DNA from: Pseudomonadales bacterium
GTDB taxonomy: Bacteria > Pseudomonadota > Gammaproteobacteria > Pseudomonadales > Azotimanducaceae
Direction of reading: 5' to 3'
Length of the DNA: 64,000 bases
Assembly: GCA_028285415.1 (NCBI GenBank)
Contig: JANQPF010000023.1
Coordinates: 124,001-188,000 of the forward strand
Shown here: positions 17,463 through 57,483 of the stretch, piece after piece
How the letters are laid out: the number at the start of each line of letters is the position of its first letter
Position numbering within the stretch: the stretch's first letter is position 1
Translations under genes and position numbers: made by a program
The notes under the pieces: generated by a model
What the model saw: the letters and a program-made list of their open reading frames with translations, nothing else
Databases searched by the model: none
Told to the model about the DNA's origin: nothing

Positions 17463-17939
17463 ATGATTGATCTCGACATGGCCGCCAACGACAACGAACG
17501 CCTCGCGCTCTCCATCTTCAAAGCCATGGAGGACGGTAACCTCATGGAGCAGATGGCGGCGCTTTGCACCGACGATTTTGTCTGGGCAAACAGCGGGCTG
17601 CCGACGCTATCCGGACAGGCAGCCGTTCGCGACCTGATGGCACGCGGCGGCTTTCGCAACGAAATTCCGATCTTAATAAACCAGACACACTTCAGCGCAG
17701 ACGTGCTCTACATGGCAAGCGCCGACAACGTGGTGTTCACGGAACGCGTTGATCACCACTGGGCGGCTGACGGGCGCGATCTCATGACGCCGCACATCGC
17801 CGGCGTCATCGAGATCAGGAACGGCAGAATTTCCGCCCTCCGGGATTTCTACGACATCGCCTGCTATGGCCAGGAACCCACTGATGTCCAGCCGGAGTTT
17901 ACGCTGGAGGCCTTCCGGGCGAGGCTGTCCGACGCCTGA
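17463..17939 (+). CDS. NTF2-like (SnoaL-type) protein
   Basis: A 158-aa cone-shaped alpha+beta barrel protein: an N-terminal helix LSIFKAMEDGNLMEQMAAL, then the pattern DDFVWANSGLPTLSGQAAVRDLM, ending with IEIRNGRISALRDFYDI. The fold occurs in isomerases, dehydratases and small hydrolases. A good ribosome site AAGGGAGA precedes the ATG. It lies between the GPH carrier and the Rieske oxygenase. Two other NTF2-like genes in the window (39722, 53562) also neighbour oxygenases, suggesting that these proteins process oxygenated products. The reaction is unknown. Confidence 0.82.
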   Translation: MIDLDMAANDNERLALSIFKAMEDGNLMEQMAALCTDDFVWANSGLPTLSGQAAVRDLMARGGFRNEIPILINQTHFSADVLYMASADNVVFTERVDHHWAADGRDLMTPHIAGVIEIRNGRISALRDFYDIACYGQEPTDVQPEFTLEAFRARLSDA

Positions 17940-18005: not shown

Positions 18006-19583
18006 ATGGCTGAAGCCGTCGACAACGGCGTCCGCACCATGGACGACGCATTTACCGCCATGCTGGAAGCGGATTCAAACGCCGCCAACATTACCGATGC
18101 CATGCGCCGGAATCAGCCGATGCCGCCGGGCCCCTCGCTCGTGCCGGTCGCGCGCTACATCGATCGCCGCTACCACGAGCTCGAGAAAGAAAAGCTCTGG
18201 CGCCGCGTCTGGCAGATGGCGGCGCATGAGGACGATTTCGAGAACGTCGGCGACGTTGTTCCTTACGACATTGCGGACCGCTCTTATCTGATCGTGCGCG
18301 TCGCTGACGACGAGTACAAAGCGTACTACAACGCCTGCCTGCACCGCGGTAGAAAGCTGCGCGAATCGCCGGCGAAGTCATTGGATGAGCTACGCTGCCC
18401 GTTCCACGGCTGGGCGTGGAACCTCGACGGCTCGTTGAAGCAGGTACCCTGCGCCTACGACTTTGCCGGACTCAAGCGCGAGGAGGAGTCACTGCCGGAA
18501 GTCAAACTCGAACGCTGGGGCCGCTTCATTTTCCTCAATCCCGACCCGGATGCCGAGCCACTGGCAGATCATCTCGGTGACCTCGGCACGCACTTTGAGA
18601 TTCTGCCCTACGACCGCCGCTTCAAGCAGGCCCACGTCGCAAAAGTCATTCGCGCCAACTGGAAAGTCGTGCAGGAAGCGTTCATGGAGTCCTACCACGT
18701 GCTCATGACGCACCCGCAGATCCTGACCGGCGGTGCCCATGATCTCTGCACCAAGTACGATGCGTTCGAAAACTACTCGCGCGCCATCCGCTGCGGTGCG
18801 CTGGAAACCGAAGGCTTGCCCTCATGGGAGCCGTACGAGAACGAAAACGGCGCCACCTGCCTCCGGCACCCCTTGAACGGTTGGATTTACGAGCACATCG
18901 GCGACGGCGTTGTTGAAGTGTCCACCCCCAAAGGTCTGTCCGGCAAATTCACCAGCGACGCCAAGTGGCTGGAAGGTGAGCTGAAAGACGCCAACCCACA
19001 CATGTGTCTGTGGGCAGGTGGCTACCAGCTGGGCGCCGACGCGGCCACCGCGCGGGCCCGGGACATGTCGCAGATACCGGACGAGGTCAAAGCCAGGCTG
19101 GGTGAGAATGCCCATCCGCGTCAGGTCATGGCAGAGATGCAGCGTTTCATGCTGCAAGGCGTGGTGCCATCCATCGCCGAGAGCATTCCCGACGTGGAGC
19201 TTCATTCCTCAATCTTTTTCACGGTGTTTCCAAACTGGCACCCGTGGGGTTCGTTCAATCTGATCAACTATCGTTTCCGACCGAACGGCGACAACCATGA
19301 AGAGTGCATCATGGAGTGTATGTACATGGCGCCAATTCCGGAAAACGGTGAGTACGAACCCGCCCGCGAGATTCACTGGCTGGATGTCGACGAAGATTGG
19401 ACCAACGCGCCGGAGCTCGGCATGCTCACCAAGATCTTCAATCAGGATCTACGCAACCTGCCGTTCGTGTTTCAGGGAATGAAAGCAACAGCTCGAGAAC
19501 ATCTGCGCGTCGGCGACTATAACGAGCTGAAGCTTCGCCACTTTCACCAACTCTATGAGCAATGGGTTGGCGACGTGGACTGA
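18006..19583 (+). CDS. Large Rieske-type ring-hydroxylating oxygenase alpha subunit
   Basis: A 525-aa oxygenase component. Rieske ligands are Cys111-x-His113 and Cys131-x2-His134 (CLHRGR and CPFHGW). The mononuclear iron site is Glu228, His231, His236 (ESYHVLMTH); Glu stands where naphthalene dioxygenase types have the bridging Asp, as in the carnitine/betaine-type enzymes. The C-terminal half carries FPNWHPWGSFNLINYRFRPNG, shared with the paralogue at 55492. It is about 74 residues longer than that paralogue; the excess includes an inserted domain at residues 285-340 homologous to the separate 78-aa protein at 56847. The ribosome site GGGAGGA precedes the ATG. No reductase is adjacent. Confidence 0.93.
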   Translation: MAEAVDNGVRTMDDAFTAMLEADSNAANITDAMRRNQPMPPGPSLVPVARYIDRRYHELEKEKLWRRVWQMAAHEDDFENVGDVVPYDIADRSYLIVRVADDEYKAYYNACLHRGRKLRESPAKSLDELRCPFHGWAWNLDGSLKQVPCAYDFAGLKREEESLPEVKLERWGRFIFLNPDPDAEPLADHLGDLGTHFEILPYDRRFKQAHVAKVIRANWKVVQEAFMESYHVLMTHPQILTGGAHDLCTKYDAFENYSRAIRCGALETEGLPSWEPYENENGATCLRHPLNGWIYEHIGDGVVEVSTPKGLSGKFTSDAKWLEGELKDANPHMCLWAGGYQLGADAATARARDMSQIPDEVKARLGENAHPRQVMAEMQRFMLQGVVPSIAESIPDVELHSSIFFTVFPNWHPWGSFNLINYRFRPNGDNHEECIMECMYMAPIPENGEYEPAREIHWLDVDEDWTNAPELGMLTKIFNQDLRNLPFVFQGMKATAREHLRVGDYNELKLRHFHQLYEQWVGDVD

Positions 19584-49677: not shown

Positions 49678-51000
49678 CTATGTATTGACTGGCAGCTGCC
49701 AGCACGTATGCATCTCCCCGACGCTGAGCGCGCTGAGCCGCGGCTCGACGCCGTCAGCCAGCTTAAGCTCCGGACATTGCTCCACCAGCGCCATCGACGC
49801 GGCCACGGCGGCGTCCCTCACCAGCGCGTAGCGCGATCGCGGCCGGTCTTCTGGAACTGCCGGATGTTTCGACGGTTTGCCGAGACCGAAAGCGATACCG
49901 GACGCCAGCCCATCCGCACGGTACTGACCGCGCGGCTCCCGCTGGCACATATCGCGGCGGTCGACGACAAATCGGTCCGGGTCTTCAAACACACGCGGAT
50001 CCCGGTTGGCTGCCGCAGCAGAGCACATCATGAGTGCACCTTCCGGCAGCAGGCGTCCGAATCGCTCCACTTCGTGTCGCGCAAAGCGCTTTGCGGACAG
50101 CACCGGCGCCGAGTGGCGCAAGGTTTCGAGGTAAGCGAGCTTCATCAGGCGGCGATCGGATCGCGCCTTCTCGAATTCGTCCGGATGAGTAAGGAGCAGA
50201 AACCAGAGGTTGGCGAGTGTTCCGTGCAACGTCTCGTGGTCACCTTCAAGAAGCGTGGCGGCAACGTCCGCACCCGACGCCGGCCCACCGTCGAGCTCTG
50301 CGTTCGCAATGACCGACACCAGGTCTTCTCCTTCACCACCGCGCCGCGCCGAGACCAGCGGATCGAAGAGTTCAGCCATCCCGGCGAGCGCCGCTTCCCC
50401 TTTGCGCTGCAGCTCCGGCTGCCAGCCGGCACCCCGCTGCGCCTGCCAGTACAACGCGTAGAAACGCTCCCGTTCCGACTCCGGCAGTGCCAGCGTTTCC
50501 GCCAGTATTGTCAAAGGCAGGCGTGCGGCAAAGTCCCGGGCAAGGTCAGCCGTCCCGTCAACCTGCATGTTGCTGATCAGCCCGGCGGCGACGTTGCCGA
50601 CATGATCGTCGAGCCCGCGGGCGATCGCCGTTTCAACCGCGAGCAGGTGGCGTAAGTCCCGACCGAAGCCTTCCAGCCCGTAAAACCAGAGCTTGCTGCG
50701 GGTTTCGAAGTTGGCTTCGTCGGCAAACACCGACGTCACATCGTCATAGCGCGTCAGCCAGTAGCGATTGCCGAGCCAGTCGCGGTAGCAGGGATAGTGT
50801 TCGCGCAGGACTTCGAGCGTCGGATAAGGATCAACGCGGTAGGCATCGGAGACGAGCTGGATCGGCTTGATCTTCTCGGTGCTCTCCCCGACCCGCTCGC
50901 GCTGGTAGACCTCGTAGGTCCGGTAGCCGCTGCCGTCCCCATCAGATTTGGTCACCACAACGCCGTTGAGGCCGGCAATGGGTTCTGCTTTTTCCGCCAC
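49678..51000 (-). CDS. P450-like protein lacking the haem-ligating cysteine
   Basis: A 440-aa P450 homologue, middle gene of the triplet. The fold is intact by motif: RVDPYPTLEVLREHYPCYRD near the N-terminus, K-helix YLETLRHSAPV with ExxR, and AAAANRDPRVFEDPDRF. The I-helix reads EGDHETLHG, a poor match to AGxETT. The haem loop begins FGLGKPSKHPAVPEDRP: from Phe371, the cysteine expected at residue 378 is Lys, and about ten extra residues follow. No other frame restores a Cys loop. It therefore probably cannot bind haem as a P450. Start is a GTG with AGGGGG upstream. Haem-less P450 homologues such as EryCII and DesVIII act as partner activators. Confidence 0.88.
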   Translation of the reverse strand: MAEKAEPIAGLNGVVVTKSDGDGSGYRTYEVYQRERVGESTEKIKPIQLVSDAYRVDPYPTLEVLREHYPCYRDWLGNRYWLTRYDDVTSVFADEANFETRSKLWFYGLEGFGRDLRHLLAVETAIARGLDDHVGNVAAGLISNMQVDGTADLARDFAARLPLTILAETLALPESERERFYALYWQAQRGAGWQPELQRKGEAALAGMAELFDPLVSARRGGEGEDLVSVIANAELDGGPASGADVAATLLEGDHETLHGTLANLWFLLLTHPDEFEKARSDRRLMKLAYLETLRHSAPVLSAKRFARHEVERFGRLLPEGALMMCSAAAANRDPRVFEDPDRFVVDRRDMCQREPRGQYRADGLASGIAFGLGKPSKHPAVPEDRPRSRYALVRDAAVAASMALVEQCPELKLADGVEPRLSALSVGEMHTCWQLPVNT

Positions 51001-51010
51001 GCGCGACCCC

Positions 51011-52429
51011 CTACGGCTTGTCGAACTCGATCCAGAGATCACGCACCGACACGATACCCATGGGTGAAGGCCCGGCGCCGTCAATGTCACGCGGCATCTT
51101 GTCCTCGCGGATAACTGGATTCTTCATCGTTGCCGACAAGATCTTCGAGCCCACCACCGTTTCCTGGTGTGAAATCCAAGCGCCCGGACAGAGATGCGGT
51201 CCCACGCCGAATGCCATGTGACTGCAGCGCCCCTCTTTGCGGTAGCCGCTGCGCAGGAGCTTCCCGGAGTAGAGATCTTCACGAAAAATGTTGAACTTCT
51301 CCGGATCTTTGAAGATGCGCTCGTCGTGGTTGGCGGAAAAATCCACCATGTTCATGAGCGAGCCCGCAGGGATGTGCACACCGTGCATCTCGATGTCGAA
51401 GGTGTTGTGCCTGGGTTGACCGCCAATGGATGAGGAGTGGCGGAGCATCTCGTGGAACGCCTTGTCCCAGTTGCTTTCGTCATCGAGCACCGCGGCAAAT
51501 TGGTCCGGATGGCGCAGGAGCAGGCACCACAAATTCATGATTGCGCCGCGGGTCGTTTCGCCCCCACCGCCGACAATCAGCGCAATGTTGGACGTGATTT
51601 CCTCAGTGGACAGAAAGTCGCCGTCAACGCGTGTTTCACAGAGTTTGCTGATGATGTCCTTGCCAACGGGGTTGCCGTCTTTGTCGTAAAGATAAGTCGG
51701 CGCCTTGCGGCGGGCTTCCACGATCCCTTCGACATAATCCTCCAGATGCTGGCGCGCTTCGACGCCCTGCTTGTGGGTCTCGGAACCACCGAGGCCGCTC
51801 ATCATCGAGTTGTACCAGTAGTAAAAGTCGGCCTGCGCTTCCTGGGGAAATCCGAGCACTTCGCAAACCACGCGAATCGGAAACTCGTTGGCGAACATCC
51901 TGCCGAGCTCCACGGTGCGCCGCGCGCCCTCGTCGATGACATACTCGGACCCTGCCGCAGCCGCCTCATCCCACGCGCCAATCATGTCCCGCGCCAGGCG
52001 CTCGATAGCCGGAACCCTGAGCTGCAGGGATTTGCCAACCAGATGCTGCCCGTACAGATTGCGTCGGCGCCGGTGCTCTACGCCGGACAGCTCCAGCTGT
52101 GTGTTTCCCAGGACGCCGCTGGAACTGCCTTTGGGAATCGTGTTGAAACCTTCGTCATCGAAATAACATTCGGTGATGTCGTCGTAGCGCGTCACCCAGT
52201 AACAGTTGTGCAGTTTGTCATGGTAAACCGGGTAATGGTCCCTCAGGATCCGGTAGTAGGGGTACGGATTCCTGAAAAACTCCGGGGAGTCGAAAATCCG
52301 TGGATCAATCAGCGGGGTGCCATCCGGTGCGGTGCCCATGTCCACCGCCTCACCTTCCGGCATCAGCGGGAACGGACTGCCCTGCGCAGCCGGCTCGTCA
52401 CTGGTCAGATCGTCAAAGAAACCGTGCAT
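51011..52429 (-). CDS. Cytochrome P450
   Basis: A 472-aa P450, first gene of the triplet: I-helix LIVGGGGETTRG, K-helix HEMLRHSSS, haem loop FGVGPHLCPGAWIS with Cys414. It is longer than usual because of an N-terminal extension of about 40 residues and an insertion around APTYLYDKDGNPVGKD. The terminal FDKP/FDR ends are shared with the P450 at 48387. Its start lies 35 bases from candidate operator A. It leads the eight-gene leftward operon. Confidence 0.94.
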   Translation of the reverse strand: MHGFFDDLTSDEPAAQGSPFPLMPEGEAVDMGTAPDGTPLIDPRIFDSPEFFRNPYPYYRILRDHYPVYHDKLHNCYWVTRYDDITECYFDDEGFNTIPKGSSSGVLGNTQLELSGVEHRRRRNLYGQHLVGKSLQLRVPAIERLARDMIGAWDEAAAAGSEYVIDEGARRTVELGRMFANEFPIRVVCEVLGFPQEAQADFYYWYNSMMSGLGGSETHKQGVEARQHLEDYVEGIVEARRKAPTYLYDKDGNPVGKDIISKLCETRVDGDFLSTEEITSNIALIVGGGGETTRGAIMNLWCLLLRHPDQFAAVLDDESNWDKAFHEMLRHSSSIGGQPRHNTFDIEMHGVHIPAGSLMNMVDFSANHDERIFKDPEKFNIFREDLYSGKLLRSGYRKEGRCSHMAFGVGPHLCPGAWISHQETVVGSKILSATMKNPVIREDKMPRDIDGAGPSPMGIVSVRDLWIEFDKP

Positions 52430-52463
52430 TGTTCTCCCCCGGATTTGCGCGCGCCACGCAAAA

Positions 52464-52479
52464 TTGTAGTAAGGTCCAG
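52464..52479. promoter_or_regulatory. Candidate TetR-type operator A
   Basis: TTGTAGTAAGGTCCAG lies between the divergent P450 operon (start 52429) and the ferredoxin-TetR pair (start 52591). Ten of sixteen positions are invariant among this and the sites at 35128 and 54036. Downstream at 52488 the string TAGACTACTC, shared with the region at 54062, resembles a -10 element (TAGACT) 18 bases after TTGTAG. Confidence 0.6.
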
Positions 52480-52590
52480 TTTTCGATTAGACTACTCTCA
52501 CCATTAGAACAAGGCAATCCTGACGCGCTCCGGTCTATGACAGCGGCGCGCCGCAAGGGCCAGCCAGAAGCGCAACCGGGTCGAGTCAGA

Positions 52591-52893
52591 ATGACATTTG
52601 TTATTGCCAGCGCCTGCATAGACGTCATTGATCAATCGTGCATCGAAGTGTGTCCCGTCGACTGTATCTACATCGACGAGGACGAGGATCGAATGTGCTA
52701 CATCGAACCCGACGAGTGCATCGATTGCGCCGTCTGCGAAGCGGCCTGCCCCGTTGGCGCAATTTTCCGGGATGAAGACCTGCCGAACGAGGCGAGCGAG
52801 TTTCTGGAAATCAACGCGCTTTACTTCAAGGACAAAGACGCCGCGCGGGCGCGCGTCGAGCAGATCATGTCGGACGGCGTCTCGGTGACCTGA
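52591..52893 (+). CDS. fdxA: 7Fe-type ferredoxin (3Fe-4S/4Fe-4S)
   Basis: A 100-aa ferredoxin starting MTFVIASACIDV. Cysteines are at 9, 17, 21 and 25 (first cluster, CIEVCPVDC) and 43, 46, 49 and 53 (CIDCAVCEAACP), with an extra Cys36. The usual second cysteine of the first motif is Val12, consistent with a [3Fe-4S] cluster. The C-terminal extension (NALYFKDKDAARARVEQI) matches the actinobacterial/FdxA form. It is divergent from the P450 operon and 2 bases before a TetR gene. It may feed electrons to the P450s or Rieske enzymes here. Confidence 0.9.
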   Translation: MTFVIASACIDVIDQSCIEVCPVDCIYIDEDEDRMCYIEPDECIDCAVCEAACPVGAIFRDEDLPNEASEFLEINALYFKDKDAARARVEQIMSDGVSVT

Positions 52894-52895
52894 GT

Positions 52896-53549
52896 ATGGC
52901 TTCCACCGCAACTGCGCGAACCTTGACACCCAACCAGCAGGAACGCCGGCGTCGGATCCTGAGCGCCGCACGCGATCTGGTCGCCGAGCACGGCTACGAC
53001 GGCACCATCATGCGCGACGTGGCCATGCTGGCCAAAGTCTCTCCGACGACGCTCTACAACCTCTACAACACCAAAGACGAGCTGCTGCTGGCGGCGCTGC
53101 GGGAAAGCGTAGCTGAAGGCTGGAATCGCACGGCGGAGGAGTTTCACGAGCTCGGCTTCGATCGCCTGCTGGGTCAGATGCACAACTCGGTGGAGCAGAC
53201 CCGGGAGGAACCGGCTTACGCCAGGGCCATCACCCAGGCGCTACTGCGGGCCAATGAAGGTGATCAGATTGTCGACGTGCTGATTGGCGGTACAACCCGC
53301 GCGATTGTCGTCTCCCTCGAAGCCATGCTCGACAAAGGTGAGCTCAATCCCAGGGCCGACATTCAAAAGCTGGCCGAGACGATGGTCGCCGCATTCTGGT
53401 CGCAGTACATGATGTGGAGCAAAGGCCAGTACAATCTCGACCGGCTGGAGCGCGAGCTCAAGCGCAGCTATCTGTCCCTGCTGTTGCCGGTCTGCCTTGA
53501 TCCGTTGGAGCAGAAGATCGCGAAGGAGCTGAACGGCTTTCTGATCTGA
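52896..53549 (+). CDS. TetR family regulator, likely controller of the P450 regulon
   Basis: A 217-aa repressor. Helix-turn-helix at about residues 15-65: RRRRILSAARDLVAEHGYDG, then the recognition helix region KVSPTTLYNLYNTKDELLLAAL. The C-terminal helical domain would bind the inducer. It is co-transcribed with the ferredoxin and lies between operators A and B, 432 bases and 487 bases away respectively. A repressor controlling its own divergent promoter and a neighbouring one is the usual TetR arrangement, so it is the best candidate for the shared 16-bp dyad. This is inference. Confidence 0.9.
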   Translation: MASTATARTLTPNQQERRRRILSAARDLVAEHGYDGTIMRDVAMLAKVSPTTLYNLYNTKDELLLAALRESVAEGWNRTAEEFHELGFDRLLGQMHNSVEQTREEPAYARAITQALLRANEGDQIVDVLIGGTTRAIVVSLEAMLDKGELNPRADIQKLAETMVAAFWSQYMMWSKGQYNLDRLERELKRSYLSLLLPVCLDPLEQKIAKELNGFLI

Positions 53550-53561
53550 CGACTCGCTGCG

Positions 53562-54011
53562 TCAGAACTCCCTGAGACCGTAGAACTGGCGTTTCGGCCA
53601 GAGGAAATCGATGCGGGTGAGATGGATTCGCCAGCGCCCGTCGACCTTTTTATACACATCGTCGTAGATGCCGTAGAGGCCAAGCGGATTGTCCGAGCCT
53701 TCCGACGTAAAGAGATCATGCAGGTACCAGCGCCCGTTCGCCGTGGTCTCGTCGATGAGCCTGATCCACGGGTTGGTCACCGAGTGCAGCACCGCAAACG
53801 GCGGTCCCTCCTGGGCCATATACCCCGCGAAGTTGGTTCTGATCTGCTCTTTCCCGACCCAGTCGCCGCCATAGTCCGGACCGAACTCGCAGACGGCGTC
53901 GTCGGTAAACAGATCCACCAGCCCTTCCAGGTTTTTACCATCGAAGAAGTGGCTGTACATGATGCGCAGCTCCTTGATGGTCTCTTTTTCGAGCATTTCC
54001 TCGAGCGTCAT
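53562..54011 (-). CDS. NTF2-like (SnoaL-type) protein
   Basis: A 149-aa alpha+beta barrel protein: KETIKELRIMYSHFFDGKNLEGLVDLF, then DDAVCEFGPDYGGDWVGKEQI, and KKVDGRWRIHLTRIDFLWP. It is the type found beside ring-hydroxylating and P450 genes; dehydratase or isomerase activity is possible. I chose the ATG at 54011; a GTG two codons earlier (54017) is closer to the GGGGGAGG ribosome site. It converges with the TetR gene (12-base gap) and diverges from the P450 at 54132 across operator B. Confidence 0.82.
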   Translation of the reverse strand: MTLEEMLEKETIKELRIMYSHFFDGKNLEGLVDLFTDDAVCEFGPDYGGDWVGKEQIRTNFAGYMAQEGPPFAVLHSVTNPWIRLIDETTANGRWYLHDLFTSEGSDNPLGLYGIYDDVYKKVDGRWRIHLTRIDFLWPKRQFYGLREF

Positions 54012-54035
54012 GGTCACCGCCACCTCCCCCGGTTT

Positions 54036-54051
54036 TTGTACCACGGTCCAC
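54036..54051. promoter_or_regulatory. Candidate TetR-type operator B
   Basis: TTGTACCACGGTCCAC lies in the 120-base divergent region between the NTF2-like gene and a P450. It contains the full left half-site TTGTACC of the inferred palindrome TTGTACC-NN-GGTACAA. The string TAGACTACTC follows at 54062-54071, as at operator A. There it forms the short palindrome AGTAG-A-CTACT. Confidence 0.6.
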
Positions 54052-54131
54052 AAATTTCAAGTAGACTACTCCGCTCACCCAGCGTTGACAACAACACCGA
54101 TTCGATAGATTTTGGGCTCAGGGGAGAAGTC

Positions 54132-55499
54132 ATGAGCAAACAACCGTACGAGACCATCGTACCCGACTCGCTGGACGGCATTAATTTTCTCGACTCGGGG
54201 CTGCAGAACTGCCCCTACCATGCCTACCAGCAGCTGCGCGACGAAGCGCCGGTCTGGGTCGATCCGATCACCGGCTTTTACGTCATCACCCGGTTCGAAG
54301 ACCTGCGTGACGTTCTGCTGGATCCTGCGCACTATCTGAACAGCATGTCCGGCGGCCAGGGCGGCAGCCGCGACCGCTTGAACGCGGAGCGCGCCGAACG
54401 CATGCACCAGCTGTACAAGGAGAAAGGCTGGGTCCCGGCGCCTACGCTCGCCGGCCGCGACGATCCCAATCACAAACAGATGCGCGCGATGTTCAACGAG
54501 GCGTTCCGTCCCAAGAAGATCAACGCCATGGACCCATTCGTCCGCGACACCGCCTACAAGCTCATCGACGCGTTCGTCGATGACGGTAAATGCGACTGGG
54601 TGAAGCAATACGCCGTGCCTCTACCGCTCATTGTGATCGGCCAGCAGATGGGCGTTCCGGAAGAGGATATCTGGCGCATCAAAGCCTGGACCGACGCGTG
54701 GGTGCAGCGTCTGGGCATGATGCAGTCCGAGGAAGAGGAGCAGTGGTCGGTAGAGATGGAAATCGAGGCACAGCACTACTTCCAGCCGAAGTTCGAACGC
54801 CTGCGCGAGACGCCGGACGACACGCTGCTCTCCGAGATGGTCAACCGGGTGATTCCCGAGTGGGACCGCCCGCTCAACGACAACGAGCTCCACGCCGAAA
54901 TGATGGCCGACACCTTTGTAGGCGGGTCCGAGACCACCACCAACGCCATCGCGTACGGCATGAAGCTCCTGATCGAAAACCCTCAGGTGTGGCAGCAGCT
55001 GAAATCCGCTCCGGACAAATACCTCAAGACGTTCTGCGAAGAAGTTGTACGCCTCGAGGGTCCGGTGCAGGGTCTTTTCCGGATGGCTGCCGAAGACATT
55101 GAACTCCACGGCGTGACGATACCCAAAGGTGCCATGATCAACGTGCGCTATGCCGCCGCCAATCGCGACGAGCGCGAATTCGAGTGTCCGGCTGAGCTCG
55201 ATCTCGATCGAAATAAACCCGGACGCCACCTCGGCTACGGATCCGGCGTGCACCACTGCCTGGGCGCACCGCTGGCGCGCCGCGAGCTGTACTGGGCGTT
55301 TCGGGCGCTGATTGATCGTGTCGACGACATGCGCTTCACTGACGGCGCCAACGACTTTACTGTGGCGCCGAGCTTTTCACTCAGGGCCCTCAAAGAACTG
55401 CACATCGAGTTTGACGCAAAAGCGCCCGCCGATCGAATAGACCCCAACCAGATTGACGCCGCCGCCGGTGTCTCGGAACTAGGAGACGAAAATGGCTGA
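54132..55499 (+). CDS. Cytochrome P450
   Basis: A 455-aa P450: I-helix TFVGGSETTTNA, K-helix EEVVRLEGP, haem loop YGSGVHHCLGAPLARRE with Cys376 (Tyr in place of the first Phe). Start is the ATG at 54132 with GGGGAGAAG upstream; the open frame extends further but crosses the divergent promoter. Its end overlaps the Rieske oxygenase start by 8 bases, so the two oxygenases are co-translated. This implies both act on one substrate. Confidence 0.94.
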   Translation: MSKQPYETIVPDSLDGINFLDSGLQNCPYHAYQQLRDEAPVWVDPITGFYVITRFEDLRDVLLDPAHYLNSMSGGQGGSRDRLNAERAERMHQLYKEKGWVPAPTLAGRDDPNHKQMRAMFNEAFRPKKINAMDPFVRDTAYKLIDAFVDDGKCDWVKQYAVPLPLIVIGQQMGVPEEDIWRIKAWTDAWVQRLGMMQSEEEEQWSVEMEIEAQHYFQPKFERLRETPDDTLLSEMVNRVIPEWDRPLNDNELHAEMMADTFVGGSETTTNAIAYGMKLLIENPQVWQQLKSAPDKYLKTFCEEVVRLEGPVQGLFRMAAEDIELHGVTIPKGAMINVRYAAANRDEREFECPAELDLDRNKPGRHLGYGSGVHHCLGAPLARRELYWAFRALIDRVDDMRFTDGANDFTVAPSFSLRALKELHIEFDAKAPADRIDPNQIDAAAGVSELGDENG

Positions 55500-56847
55500 A
55501 GCCTACAAGGACCTCGATCCGGCCACGATGCCGCGTTCACCGGGCCTGACCTACCAGGATCTTTTGGACACGGATTCCCACGACGTCCCCGACGTCCTGC
55601 GTCTGCAATCGCCCAAGGACATGGGCGTGCGCGAGTATCCAGTGACCCGGTATACCACCAGGGAGTGGCACGACCGGGAGGTTGAGCACCTCTGGAAAAA
55701 AGTCTGGCAGATGGCCTGCCGGGAAGAGGAGATTCCACTCCCGGGCGATCATATGCGTTATGACATCGCCGGTATGTCGTTCCTTGTCGTGCGCACCGAT
55801 GCCGGTGACATCAAAGCGTTTCCAAACGCCTGCCTGCATCGCGGCCGTATGCTGAAAGAGTTCGACGGCAACGCCACGGAGCTGCGCTGTGCATTTCACG
55901 GCTTCGCCTGGCACCTCGACGGCAGCTTCTGCGACATCCCCGCGGACTGGGATTTTGCGCACGTCGACAAGAGCACGTTCAACCTGCCTGAGCTGCCCGT
56001 TGCCACCTGGGAAGGTTTCGTTTTCATCAATCCCGACCAAAACTGCGCCCCGTTCGACGACTTCATCAAAGACCTCGACGAACAGTTCCAGCGCTGGAAA
56101 CCCGCCACGCTTTATAAAGCGGCACACGTGGCCAAGGTGATGCCGTGTAACTGGAAAATCGCCCAGGAAGCGTTCTGCGAGGCGTACCACGTCAACGGCA
56201 CGCACCCACAGATTCTGCGTAGCCTCGGCGATGTAAACAGCCAGGTCGACATCTGGGAAAACTGCGCGCGGGTCATCACACCCGGCGGCACCTCGAGTCC
56301 TCTGCTGGACTATGAAGTGTCCGACCAGGAGGCACTGCGCGCCAATCTGGATCTGCCGCACGACGCCGACGTTCCGGAGATTCCGGAAGGCATGAACCTG
56401 CGGCAATACCTGGCCGAGCGATCACGCGAAAACCTGCGCCCGGTGGCCGGAACGCGGGTCGACGAATACTGCGATGCGGAGCTGGTCGATAGCATCGACT
56501 ACACGCTTTTCCCGAATTTCCACCCCTGGGGCGCCTTCAACGGCATCAACTATCGCTTCCGTCCGAACGGGAACGATCACCGCAGCGCCATCATGGAGTG
56601 CATCATGCTCGCACCTTACGAGGGTGAGCGACCACCGCCCGCACCCGTGGTCTGGCTCGAAGAAGATCAGTCCTGGTCCAGCGCGCTCGGCTTTCTCGGC
56701 AAAGTCTTCGATCAGGACGCGTTCAACATGCCGCGCGTTCAGGAGGGACTCGAATCTACCTATCAGACAGGGGTTGTCCTATCGGGCTACCAGGAGTCCA
56801 AGGTGCGCTGGCTGCATCATAAACTGACCGAATGGGTGGGTGAGTAA
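55492..56847 (+). CDS. Rieske-type oxygenase alpha subunit
   Basis: A 451-aa oxygenase component. Rieske ligands Cys114, His116, Cys133, His136 (CLHRGR and CAFHGF). Mononuclear iron site Glu230, His233, His238 (EAYHVNGTH). The C-terminal region DYTLFPNFHPWGAFNGINYRFRPNG is shared with the paralogue at 18006, from which it differs mainly by lacking the inserted domain. It overlaps the P450 upstream (8 bases) and the 78-aa gene downstream (1 base, TAATG). No reductase is adjacent; the 7Fe ferredoxin at 52591 is a candidate donor. Confidence 0.93.
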   Translation: MAEAYKDLDPATMPRSPGLTYQDLLDTDSHDVPDVLRLQSPKDMGVREYPVTRYTTREWHDREVEHLWKKVWQMACREEEIPLPGDHMRYDIAGMSFLVVRTDAGDIKAFPNACLHRGRMLKEFDGNATELRCAFHGFAWHLDGSFCDIPADWDFAHVDKSTFNLPELPVATWEGFVFINPDQNCAPFDDFIKDLDEQFQRWKPATLYKAAHVAKVMPCNWKIAQEAFCEAYHVNGTHPQILRSLGDVNSQVDIWENCARVITPGGTSSPLLDYEVSDQEALRANLDLPHDADVPEIPEGMNLRQYLAERSRENLRPVAGTRVDEYCDAELVDSIDYTLFPNFHPWGAFNGINYRFRPNGNDHRSAIMECIMLAPYEGERPPPAPVVWLEEDQSWSSALGFLGKVFDQDAFNMPRVQEGLESTYQTGVVLSGYQESKVRWLHHKLTEWVGE

Positions 56848-57083
56848 TGGCCAGTCTGACACATCCTTTCGACCCCGATACGCTCTACGAGCTCGACGGC
56901 GACGGCAATATCAAGATCTCGAACGGGAGCAAGACCGGCATCTTCACCAGAAAGGGGCAGTACATCTCCGGGGATATCAAGCAAGCCGATCCGCAGCTCT
57001 GCGTATGGGTGGGCAACAATCCCGGCGATGCGATGCAGCAGATGAGCGAAGGCGGCACCTCCATCACAGCCAAGCGAACCTGA
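56847..57083 (+). CDS. 78-aa stand-alone homologue of the domain inserted in the Rieske oxygenase at 18006
   Basis: A 78-aa soluble protein, start ATG overlapping the Rieske stop. Residues 3-57 align by eye with residues 285-339 of the Rieske oxygenase at 18006. Matching elements in order: LxHP, YE, GDG, a GxFT turn, G-x2-K-x-A-x-P, and C-x-W-x-G (here KQADPQLCVWVGN, there KDANPHMCLWAGG). I count about 19 identities over about 55 columns with two single-residue gaps. The neighbouring Rieske oxygenase lacks this insertion. It is therefore probably an accessory subunit that docks on that enzyme. The conserved Cys and Trp are candidate functional residues. No known family name comes to mind. Confidence 0.8.
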   Translation: MASLTHPFDPDTLYELDGDGNIKISNGSKTGIFTRKGQYISGDIKQADPQLCVWVGNNPGDAMQQMSEGGTSITAKRT

Positions 57084-57093
57084 GGAGGAGGCC

Positions 57094-57483
57094 ATGCCGC
57101 AATTCATGCTGATTGGGCTGTGTGAGCCGTTGAGCGCGGAAGACCAGGCTGCGTTCGACGAGTGGTTCATTGACCAGCACATCGAAGATACGACCCACTG
57201 CCCGAACTTCGTGCGCGGCCGCGTGTTCAAACTGTCGGGACCGCACCTCGATATCGAAACACCGTCCCGCTATATCTCGTTCTACGAGGTCGAGGCAGAC
57301 TCCTACGAAGAAGCCGAACGCGTGCTCAACGAATGGCAGGCAGACGAAAACGCCTGGCCGGGGCGGATGCGCCACCTGGAGACGATGCAGCGTCTCGGTG
57401 GCGACATTCCCATGAACATCCGCGGCGCAGGGTGGTACGAGCTTCTCGGATCCTTCGACGGACCCGGGCGAAGCGGCGGTTGA
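57094..57483 (+). CDS. Dimeric alpha/beta-barrel (DUF4286/EthD-like) protein
   Basis: A 129-aa protein of the ferredoxin-like dimeric barrel class: FMLIGLCEPLSAEDQAAFDEWFIDQHIED, a middle strand RYISFYEVEADSYEEAERVL, and a helix-rich end. The DEWF-x-H-IED segment is typical of DUF4286/EthD-like proteins, which accompany P450 and Rieske degraders. They may act as small isomerases or chaperones; the role is undefined. AGGAGG precedes the start by 5 bases and it lies 10 bases after the 78-aa gene. It is probably the last gene of the core Rieske operon. Confidence 0.8.
   Translation: MPQFMLIGLCEPLSAEDQAAFDEWFIDQHIEDTTHCPNFVRGRVFKLSGPHLDIETPSRYISFYEVEADSYEEAERVLNEWQADENAWPGRMRHLETMQRLGGDIPMNIRGAGWYELLGSFDGPGRSGG

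Follow-up and report, generated by a model that had tools for sequence, protein, structure and literature searches.

The 78-aa protein encoded at 56847..57083 (+) of the window, by which is meant the whole 64,000-nucleotide stretch of Pseudomonadales DNA analysed here, is probably an auxiliary subunit dedicated to the 451-aa Rieske oxygenase encoded directly upstream (55492..56847, +), judging from sequence, gene position and predicted structure. It would represent an undescribed module family, belonging to a clade of enzymes in which the module occurs as a gene just downstream of the catalytic subunit gene, as a gene just upstream of it, or as a domain within the catalytic subunit itself. The last arrangement is also present in the window, in the 525-aa Rieske oxygenase at 18006..19583 (+; Pfam and AlphaFold2), where BLASTP and the AlphaFold2 model place the built-in module at residues 286-339 (18861..19022, +).

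Both oxygenases possess a Rieske domain (PF00355, E 3.6e-16 for the 525-aa enzyme and 9.5e-14 for the 451-aa enzyme) as well as the catalytic domain (PF00848), the 451-aa enzyme being an alpha-type subunit by its Pfam matches to Rieske and Ring_hydroxyl_A. In a 40-row enzyme alignment, H231 and H236 are invariant and D481 nearly so; these are the residues that we take to be the iron ligands, as the 2-His motif and the later acid, respectively. The built-in copy follows the 2-His iron motif and precedes the third of the iron ligands. The matching loop of the 451-aa enzyme, at approximately residues 271-301 (56302..56394, +; from alignments), is of ancestral length and has no insert. The ORF for the small protein opens with an ATG that has one base in common with the TAA of the 451-aa gene, creating the arrangement TAATG.

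The original prediction held that the small protein aligns with an insertion in the 525-aa enzyme, that this insertion is absent from the 451-aa enzyme, whose stop the small gene overlaps, and that a single module occurs within one enzyme, in cis, and as a separate protein, in trans, next to that enzyme's paralogue; all of these claims stand. BLASTP pairs residues 4-56 of the 78-aa protein with 286-338 in the 525-aa enzyme at 43.1 bits, 19 of the 54 columns being identical, and the Smith-Waterman score of 98 was reached in none of 2000 shuffles (mean 28.6, s.d. 4.5, maximum 61). Comparison of a profile restricted to downstream stand-alone modules (A5, 18 rows) with one restricted to built-in copies (A6, 20 rows) aligned 57 columns with a probability of 99.5% and an E value of 1.7e-22, a significant likeness between the two regions, and the upstream stand-alone type gave 99.8% and 3.3e-29. 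For the 451-aa enzyme no significant match to the 78-aa protein was found (Smith-Waterman 29, equal to the shuffle mean), and its alignment with the 525-aa enzyme gaps at the insert. Residues H288, Y295, F315, G324 and W336 of the built-in module are the counterparts of H6, Y14, F33, G42 and W54 in the small protein, and the equivalents of these five conserved residues are retained in 96-100% of downstream, upstream and built-in copies (117 rows), which suggests a common job in all three arrangements. Across 32 rows from two phyla, Y14, F33, G42 and W54 are invariant and H6 is near-invariant, being lost in one Rhodococcus protein. Among six orthologues, dN/dS ranged from 0.08 to 0.35 in the five of 15 pairs with finite dS (the remaining ten being saturated), with a value of 0.12 for the 78-aa protein and its orthologue at locus L089.

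The predicted folds point in the same direction. AlphaFold2 places strands in the 78-aa protein at residues 3-5, 12-16, 22-26, 29-33 and 39-42, followed by a helix at 49-56, and strands in the 525-aa insert at 285-287, 294-299, 302-306, 312-316 and 321-324, with a helix at 331-338; the predicted elements match one-to-one, as a comparison of element order rather than a superposition. The model of the small protein has a mean pLDDT of 85, with 10-residue blocks of 94-98 over residues 1-50 and of 51-55 in the tail (61-78). That of the 525-aa enzyme averages 89, and its built-in module is predicted with 10-residue blocks of 93-97 (residues 291-330) and flanking blocks of 85 and 89. However, the linkers (74-83 for residues 261-280, 60-63 for 341-360) and the 2-His region (69-78 for residues 231-250) are of lower confidence, and thus the place of the built-in copy relative to the rest of the enzyme is uncertain.

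The module has no counterpart among the known families and structures that were searched. The only Pfam match of the 78-aa protein at E<=1 is to an unrelated family and falls far short of the cut-off; NCBIfam gave zero matches, and neither collection yielded one to the beta-subunit family of alpha3beta3 enzymes. No solved chain in the PDB resembles the module significantly by sequence, and Foldseek with the 78-aa model returned 187 PDB matches, none at E<=0.001, the best being a polo-box domain (E 0.92). A Rieske ferredoxin was also considered and rejected, as the C-x-H / C-x2-H ligands are absent, no Cys is invariant in 32 rows, and the profile match to 1fqt reaches only E 0.77. Both the polo-box and the Rieske-ferredoxin echoes are at chance level.

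The association of module and enzyme extends well beyond the window. The genome from which the window derives has four module copies, one downstream of the 451-aa enzyme, one upstream of another enzyme on contig C21, and two built in. In eight genomes of the genus, a profile search yields 24 copies, all accounted for: 14 built in, seven downstream (one of which spans two contigs joined by inference only) and three upstream. Among 40 aligned enzymes (the two in the window and 38 from 40 stretches of the same genomes, taken as the best of a longer list reaching about 30% identity, with the distant L088 and the fragment L094 dropped), these 24 enzymes are joined by 16 without a module in the fetched flanks. 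Within the family as a whole, the profile finds the module in 80 of 206 genomes and 23 of 37 genera. Stretches were fetched around 100 of the listed places, covering nearly all listed stand-alone modules and part of the built-in ones, and 141 loci, mostly picked by the module and including the window, were analysed. All 74 stand-alone modules in these loci (41 downstream and 33 upstream of the enzyme, alongside 51 built-in copies) lie within 185 bp of a same-strand Rieske oxygenase, measured from profile match to profile match, and not one of the 74 partner enzymes has the insert. An ATG was found for 39 of the 41 downstream modules; 13 of these overlap the stop codon of the enzyme gene by a single base and another 11 by more than that.

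Module-based picking of loci was balanced by an enzyme-picked control on loci outside those already fetched, in which a module was present beside 21 of 23 trans-type enzymes, the two misses (L246 and L250) being at contig ends, and beside none of 11 more distant oxygenases (41-46% identity). No loss of the module was seen at loci having both flanks. At L155 (1324-3630) a module gene sits between two same-strand Rieske oxygenase genes, the second truncated by the contig end, while at L230 (2636-5850) two oxygenases, each with a built-in module, occur in tandem; the genome of the latter (G503) has eight module copies, more than any other genome among the matches listed. At L147 (2678-4249), an oxygenase with a built-in module is broken by one in-frame stop, representing a pseudogene, an error or recoding.

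In a tree of 177 enzymes, the 144 that bear a module form one clade (SH-aLRT 99) with the 30 lacking it outside, and the association of module and enzyme has a single origin on this tree, which was obtained by a quick search and has long outgroup branches. Within the clade, the 57 downstream, 51 built-in and 36 upstream enzymes constitute one subclade each, requiring the minimum of three label changes; L095, L246 and L250, cut by contig ends, were left unlabelled, and the short pieces L094, L132 and the second L155 enzyme were dropped from the trees. The first tree, of the 40 enzymes above, likewise placed the 24 module-bearing enzymes in one clade (100/99) and each arrangement in a clade of its own. 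In the module tree the arrangements are not fully separated (three changes against a minimum of two), although few columns are available there. The length of the loop from the His motif to FPN, parsed in 131 of 135 enzymes, is 99-102 in trans-type enzymes and 97-113 in the module-free outgroup, as compared to 157-181 in cis-type enzymes, and a profile of module-free loops spans the trans loops end to end and the cis loops in part only. Since trans loops are of outgroup length, the simplest account is a single addition of the insert, to an enzyme with a module already as its neighbour. Thus, loop lengths and tree together favour a separate gene as the ancestral condition, with the built-in form probably a later fusion by a single insertion, an ordering that depends on the outgroup. 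The small protein had originally been described as the detached version of the inserted domain; by the same evidence, the direction was probably the reverse.

Outside the family, the module is rare in the genomes sampled. It was found in three of 390 genomes of the order, all from the same family and including the window's own, and in one of 398 genomes of the phylum, again the window's own, in searches that scored up to 14 candidates per genome. An exact short-peptide scan of the 78-aa protein, with one genome per species, found three loci only, all in Pseudomonadales; close relatives alone are visible to such a scan. Confinement to one Pseudomonadales family is nevertheless ruled out by plasmid records, in which a stand-alone module is present on five plasmids of Rhodococcus, from another phylum. 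The similarity is weak by single sequence (E 0.002-0.01), whereas a profile containing zero Rhodococcus rows recovers all five with E values of 7.5e-12 to 1.2e-18. Of 21 plasmid records with a related enzyme, 17 were examined (H30, H33, H35 and H36 were left out); the module lies directly downstream of the enzyme in these five and is absent, by profile, from the other 12. The Rhodococcus module gene either overlaps the enzyme gene or begins one base past it (in Rhodococcus sp. ZPP the two proteins are WP_208963840.1 and WP_208963839.1), and in the two annotated records the module is a 'hypothetical protein' beside an 'aromatic ring-hydroxylating dioxygenase subunit alpha'. A tree thinned to one in three of the module-bearing rows, with L088 and L095 excluded, places the Rhodococcus enzymes as the sister group of the downstream type (100/97) and keeps the enzymes of the 12 module-free plasmids outside the module clade (100/100). 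One Rhodococcus opacus plasmid (L267, NZ_CP130956.1) has a second place matching the module.

Taken with the constant adjacency, the mutual exclusion of cis and trans forms, the single clade and the shared order of predicted fold elements, the Rhodococcus pairs argue that the small protein and the catalytic subunit are very probably partners, as had been predicted. How such a partner would act can be suggested from the site of the built-in copy. In CARDO, the iron ligands lie just before two active-site entrance loops. According to the available part of one source, such loops, for example residues 202-214 and 229-238 of CARDO, close over the substrate (PMC12445004). Going by spacing, we place the entrance loops in the same region as the built-in copy. 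The separate module would then bind the catalytic domain of its neighbour where the built-in copy is anchored, near the gating loops of the active site, and would help to form or stabilise the substrate entrance, presumably with one module on each chain of a trimer. A binding surface was also sought among clade-specific enzyme residues, and this was set aside: at the thresholds applied, only seven positions distinguish the enzymes that have a module from those that lack one, and these lie scattered and outline no clear surface.

A role at the substrate entrance has to be weighed against other ways in which a small partner could serve an oxygenase. In one of these the module would serve structure or redox docking, in the manner of a beta subunit, by stabilising the trimer or helping the ferredoxin to dock, and would have no part in substrate choice. 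Beta subunits have been described in such roles (PMC12445004, in the sections available), and the module fold is predicted to be small and beta-rich and is devoid of conserved cysteine cluster ligands. However, the built-in copy lies among the loops that follow the 2-His motif, entrance loops gate several enzymes according to the same sections (PMC12445004), and the module has no match to the beta-subunit family, leaving this explanation rather unlikely. More doubtful still is a role as a dedicated chaperone or assembly factor, required for the enzyme to fold or to receive its cofactors, with the built-in copy as an internal chaperone. Each trans-type enzyme read has a single module gene next to it, often with an overlap, as would be expected of such a factor. 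Yet all three arrangements have long been kept at one module for each enzyme, and in one of them the fusion is permanent, which better fits a stoichiometric part, and the built-in copy is confidently predicted as a folded domain. That the small gene is what remains of a duplicated enzyme, a by-product kept by chance linkage, might be supposed from its shortness and its want of a known family, but is already contradicted by the conservation data (the low dN/dS values, the four residues invariant across two phyla, and the 74/74 adjacency with loss unseen wherever both flanks are present) and is barely credible.

In alpha3beta3 Rieske oxygenases the beta-subunit gene sits beside the alpha-subunit gene, and a dedicated auxiliary subunit would resemble the beta subunit in that placement, in its small size and in having no catalytic role. 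It differs from beta subunits in its size of about 67-94 aa, in its predicted five strands and a helix, and in being built into the alpha chain elsewhere. Similarly, entrance loops and the beta-sheet segment of KshA are variable, lie near the active site and affect substrate range, as stated in the available text (PMC12445004), whereas the module is a complete foldable domain that can be a separate protein. An extra protein required by a Rieske-family enzyme is known from the caffeine demethylase NdmCDE, where NdmE, in the portion of the report available, is GST-like and thought to align a split-off Rieske domain (PMC4408171); in the window enzymes the Rieske domain is intact. The best solved fold match of the 525-aa model is the carnitine monooxygenase CntA (6zgp, 6y9c; E 8e-22), the solved chains of which have about 340-365 residues and are 15-16% identical to the 525-aa enzyme.

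The nearest relative with known chemistry to be found is an alpha-type enzyme of pTML1, 31% identical to the 451-aa enzyme and named here as TmlW because the next gene matches MupZ (6fxd, 9e-44). From the available portions of two reports, MupW and TmlW act together with the epoxide hydrolase MupZ/TmlZ in the thiomarinol and mupirocin pathways, and initiate ring formation through oxidation of an unactivated carbon chain, as seen in whole-cell tests in E. coli (PMC8827043, PMC8159325). Enzymes of this kind therefore need not act on aromatic rings. Unlike the 451-aa and 525-aa enzymes, TmlW has no module in cis or in the fetched flanks; it is active in E. coli cells, in an account whose available text mentions no module (PMC8159325), and thus the enzyme fold can do without one.

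The genes around the two oxygenases offer further observations. Directly after the module, at 57094-57483, is a gene for a 129-aa protein that may be a third part of the operon; it has relatives at 13 other downstream-type loci (in two pieces at L132), no family and weak Pfam matches only, and was rejected as a MupZ relative (E 0.5). Upstream of the 451-aa oxygenase, three cytochrome P450 genes and a ferredoxin gene occupy 49678-55499, and one P450 ORF overlaps the start of the oxygenase gene (55492-55499). In the case of the 525-aa oxygenase, a protein resembling limonene-epoxide hydrolase (PF07858, E 3.8e-11) is encoded just upstream, at 17463-17939, with relatives in loci L086, L186, L250 and L251. 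This pair recalls the pairing of MupW with MupZ in function, although the hydrolase-like protein has no sequence likeness to TmlZ (zero matches), and is discarded as a relative of it.

The assemblies of Rieske oxygenases named in the available part of one source include alpha3, alpha3beta3 and alpha3alpha'3, among others (PMC12445004), and a search of the open-access literature, where broad terms gave mostly off-topic results, found no description of a subunit such as this one. A separate module that elsewhere is part of the catalytic chain would be a further type of assembly, and would provide a natural test of how the entrance region determines substrate choice. It is conceivable, if on present evidence somewhat less than probable, that the module represents a third kind of Rieske oxygenase subunit, of unsolved fold, acting as a detachable lid of the active site and long kept in two separate-chain arrangements and one fused arrangement; if so, one gate would be open to study both as an exchangeable and as a fixed part. 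The reading as an auxiliary subunit is testable in cultured Rhodococcus strains. As the module is common in one family and goes by 'hypothetical protein' in the two annotated Rhodococcus records, expression of such an oxygenase by itself may yield an enzyme that lacks one of its parts.
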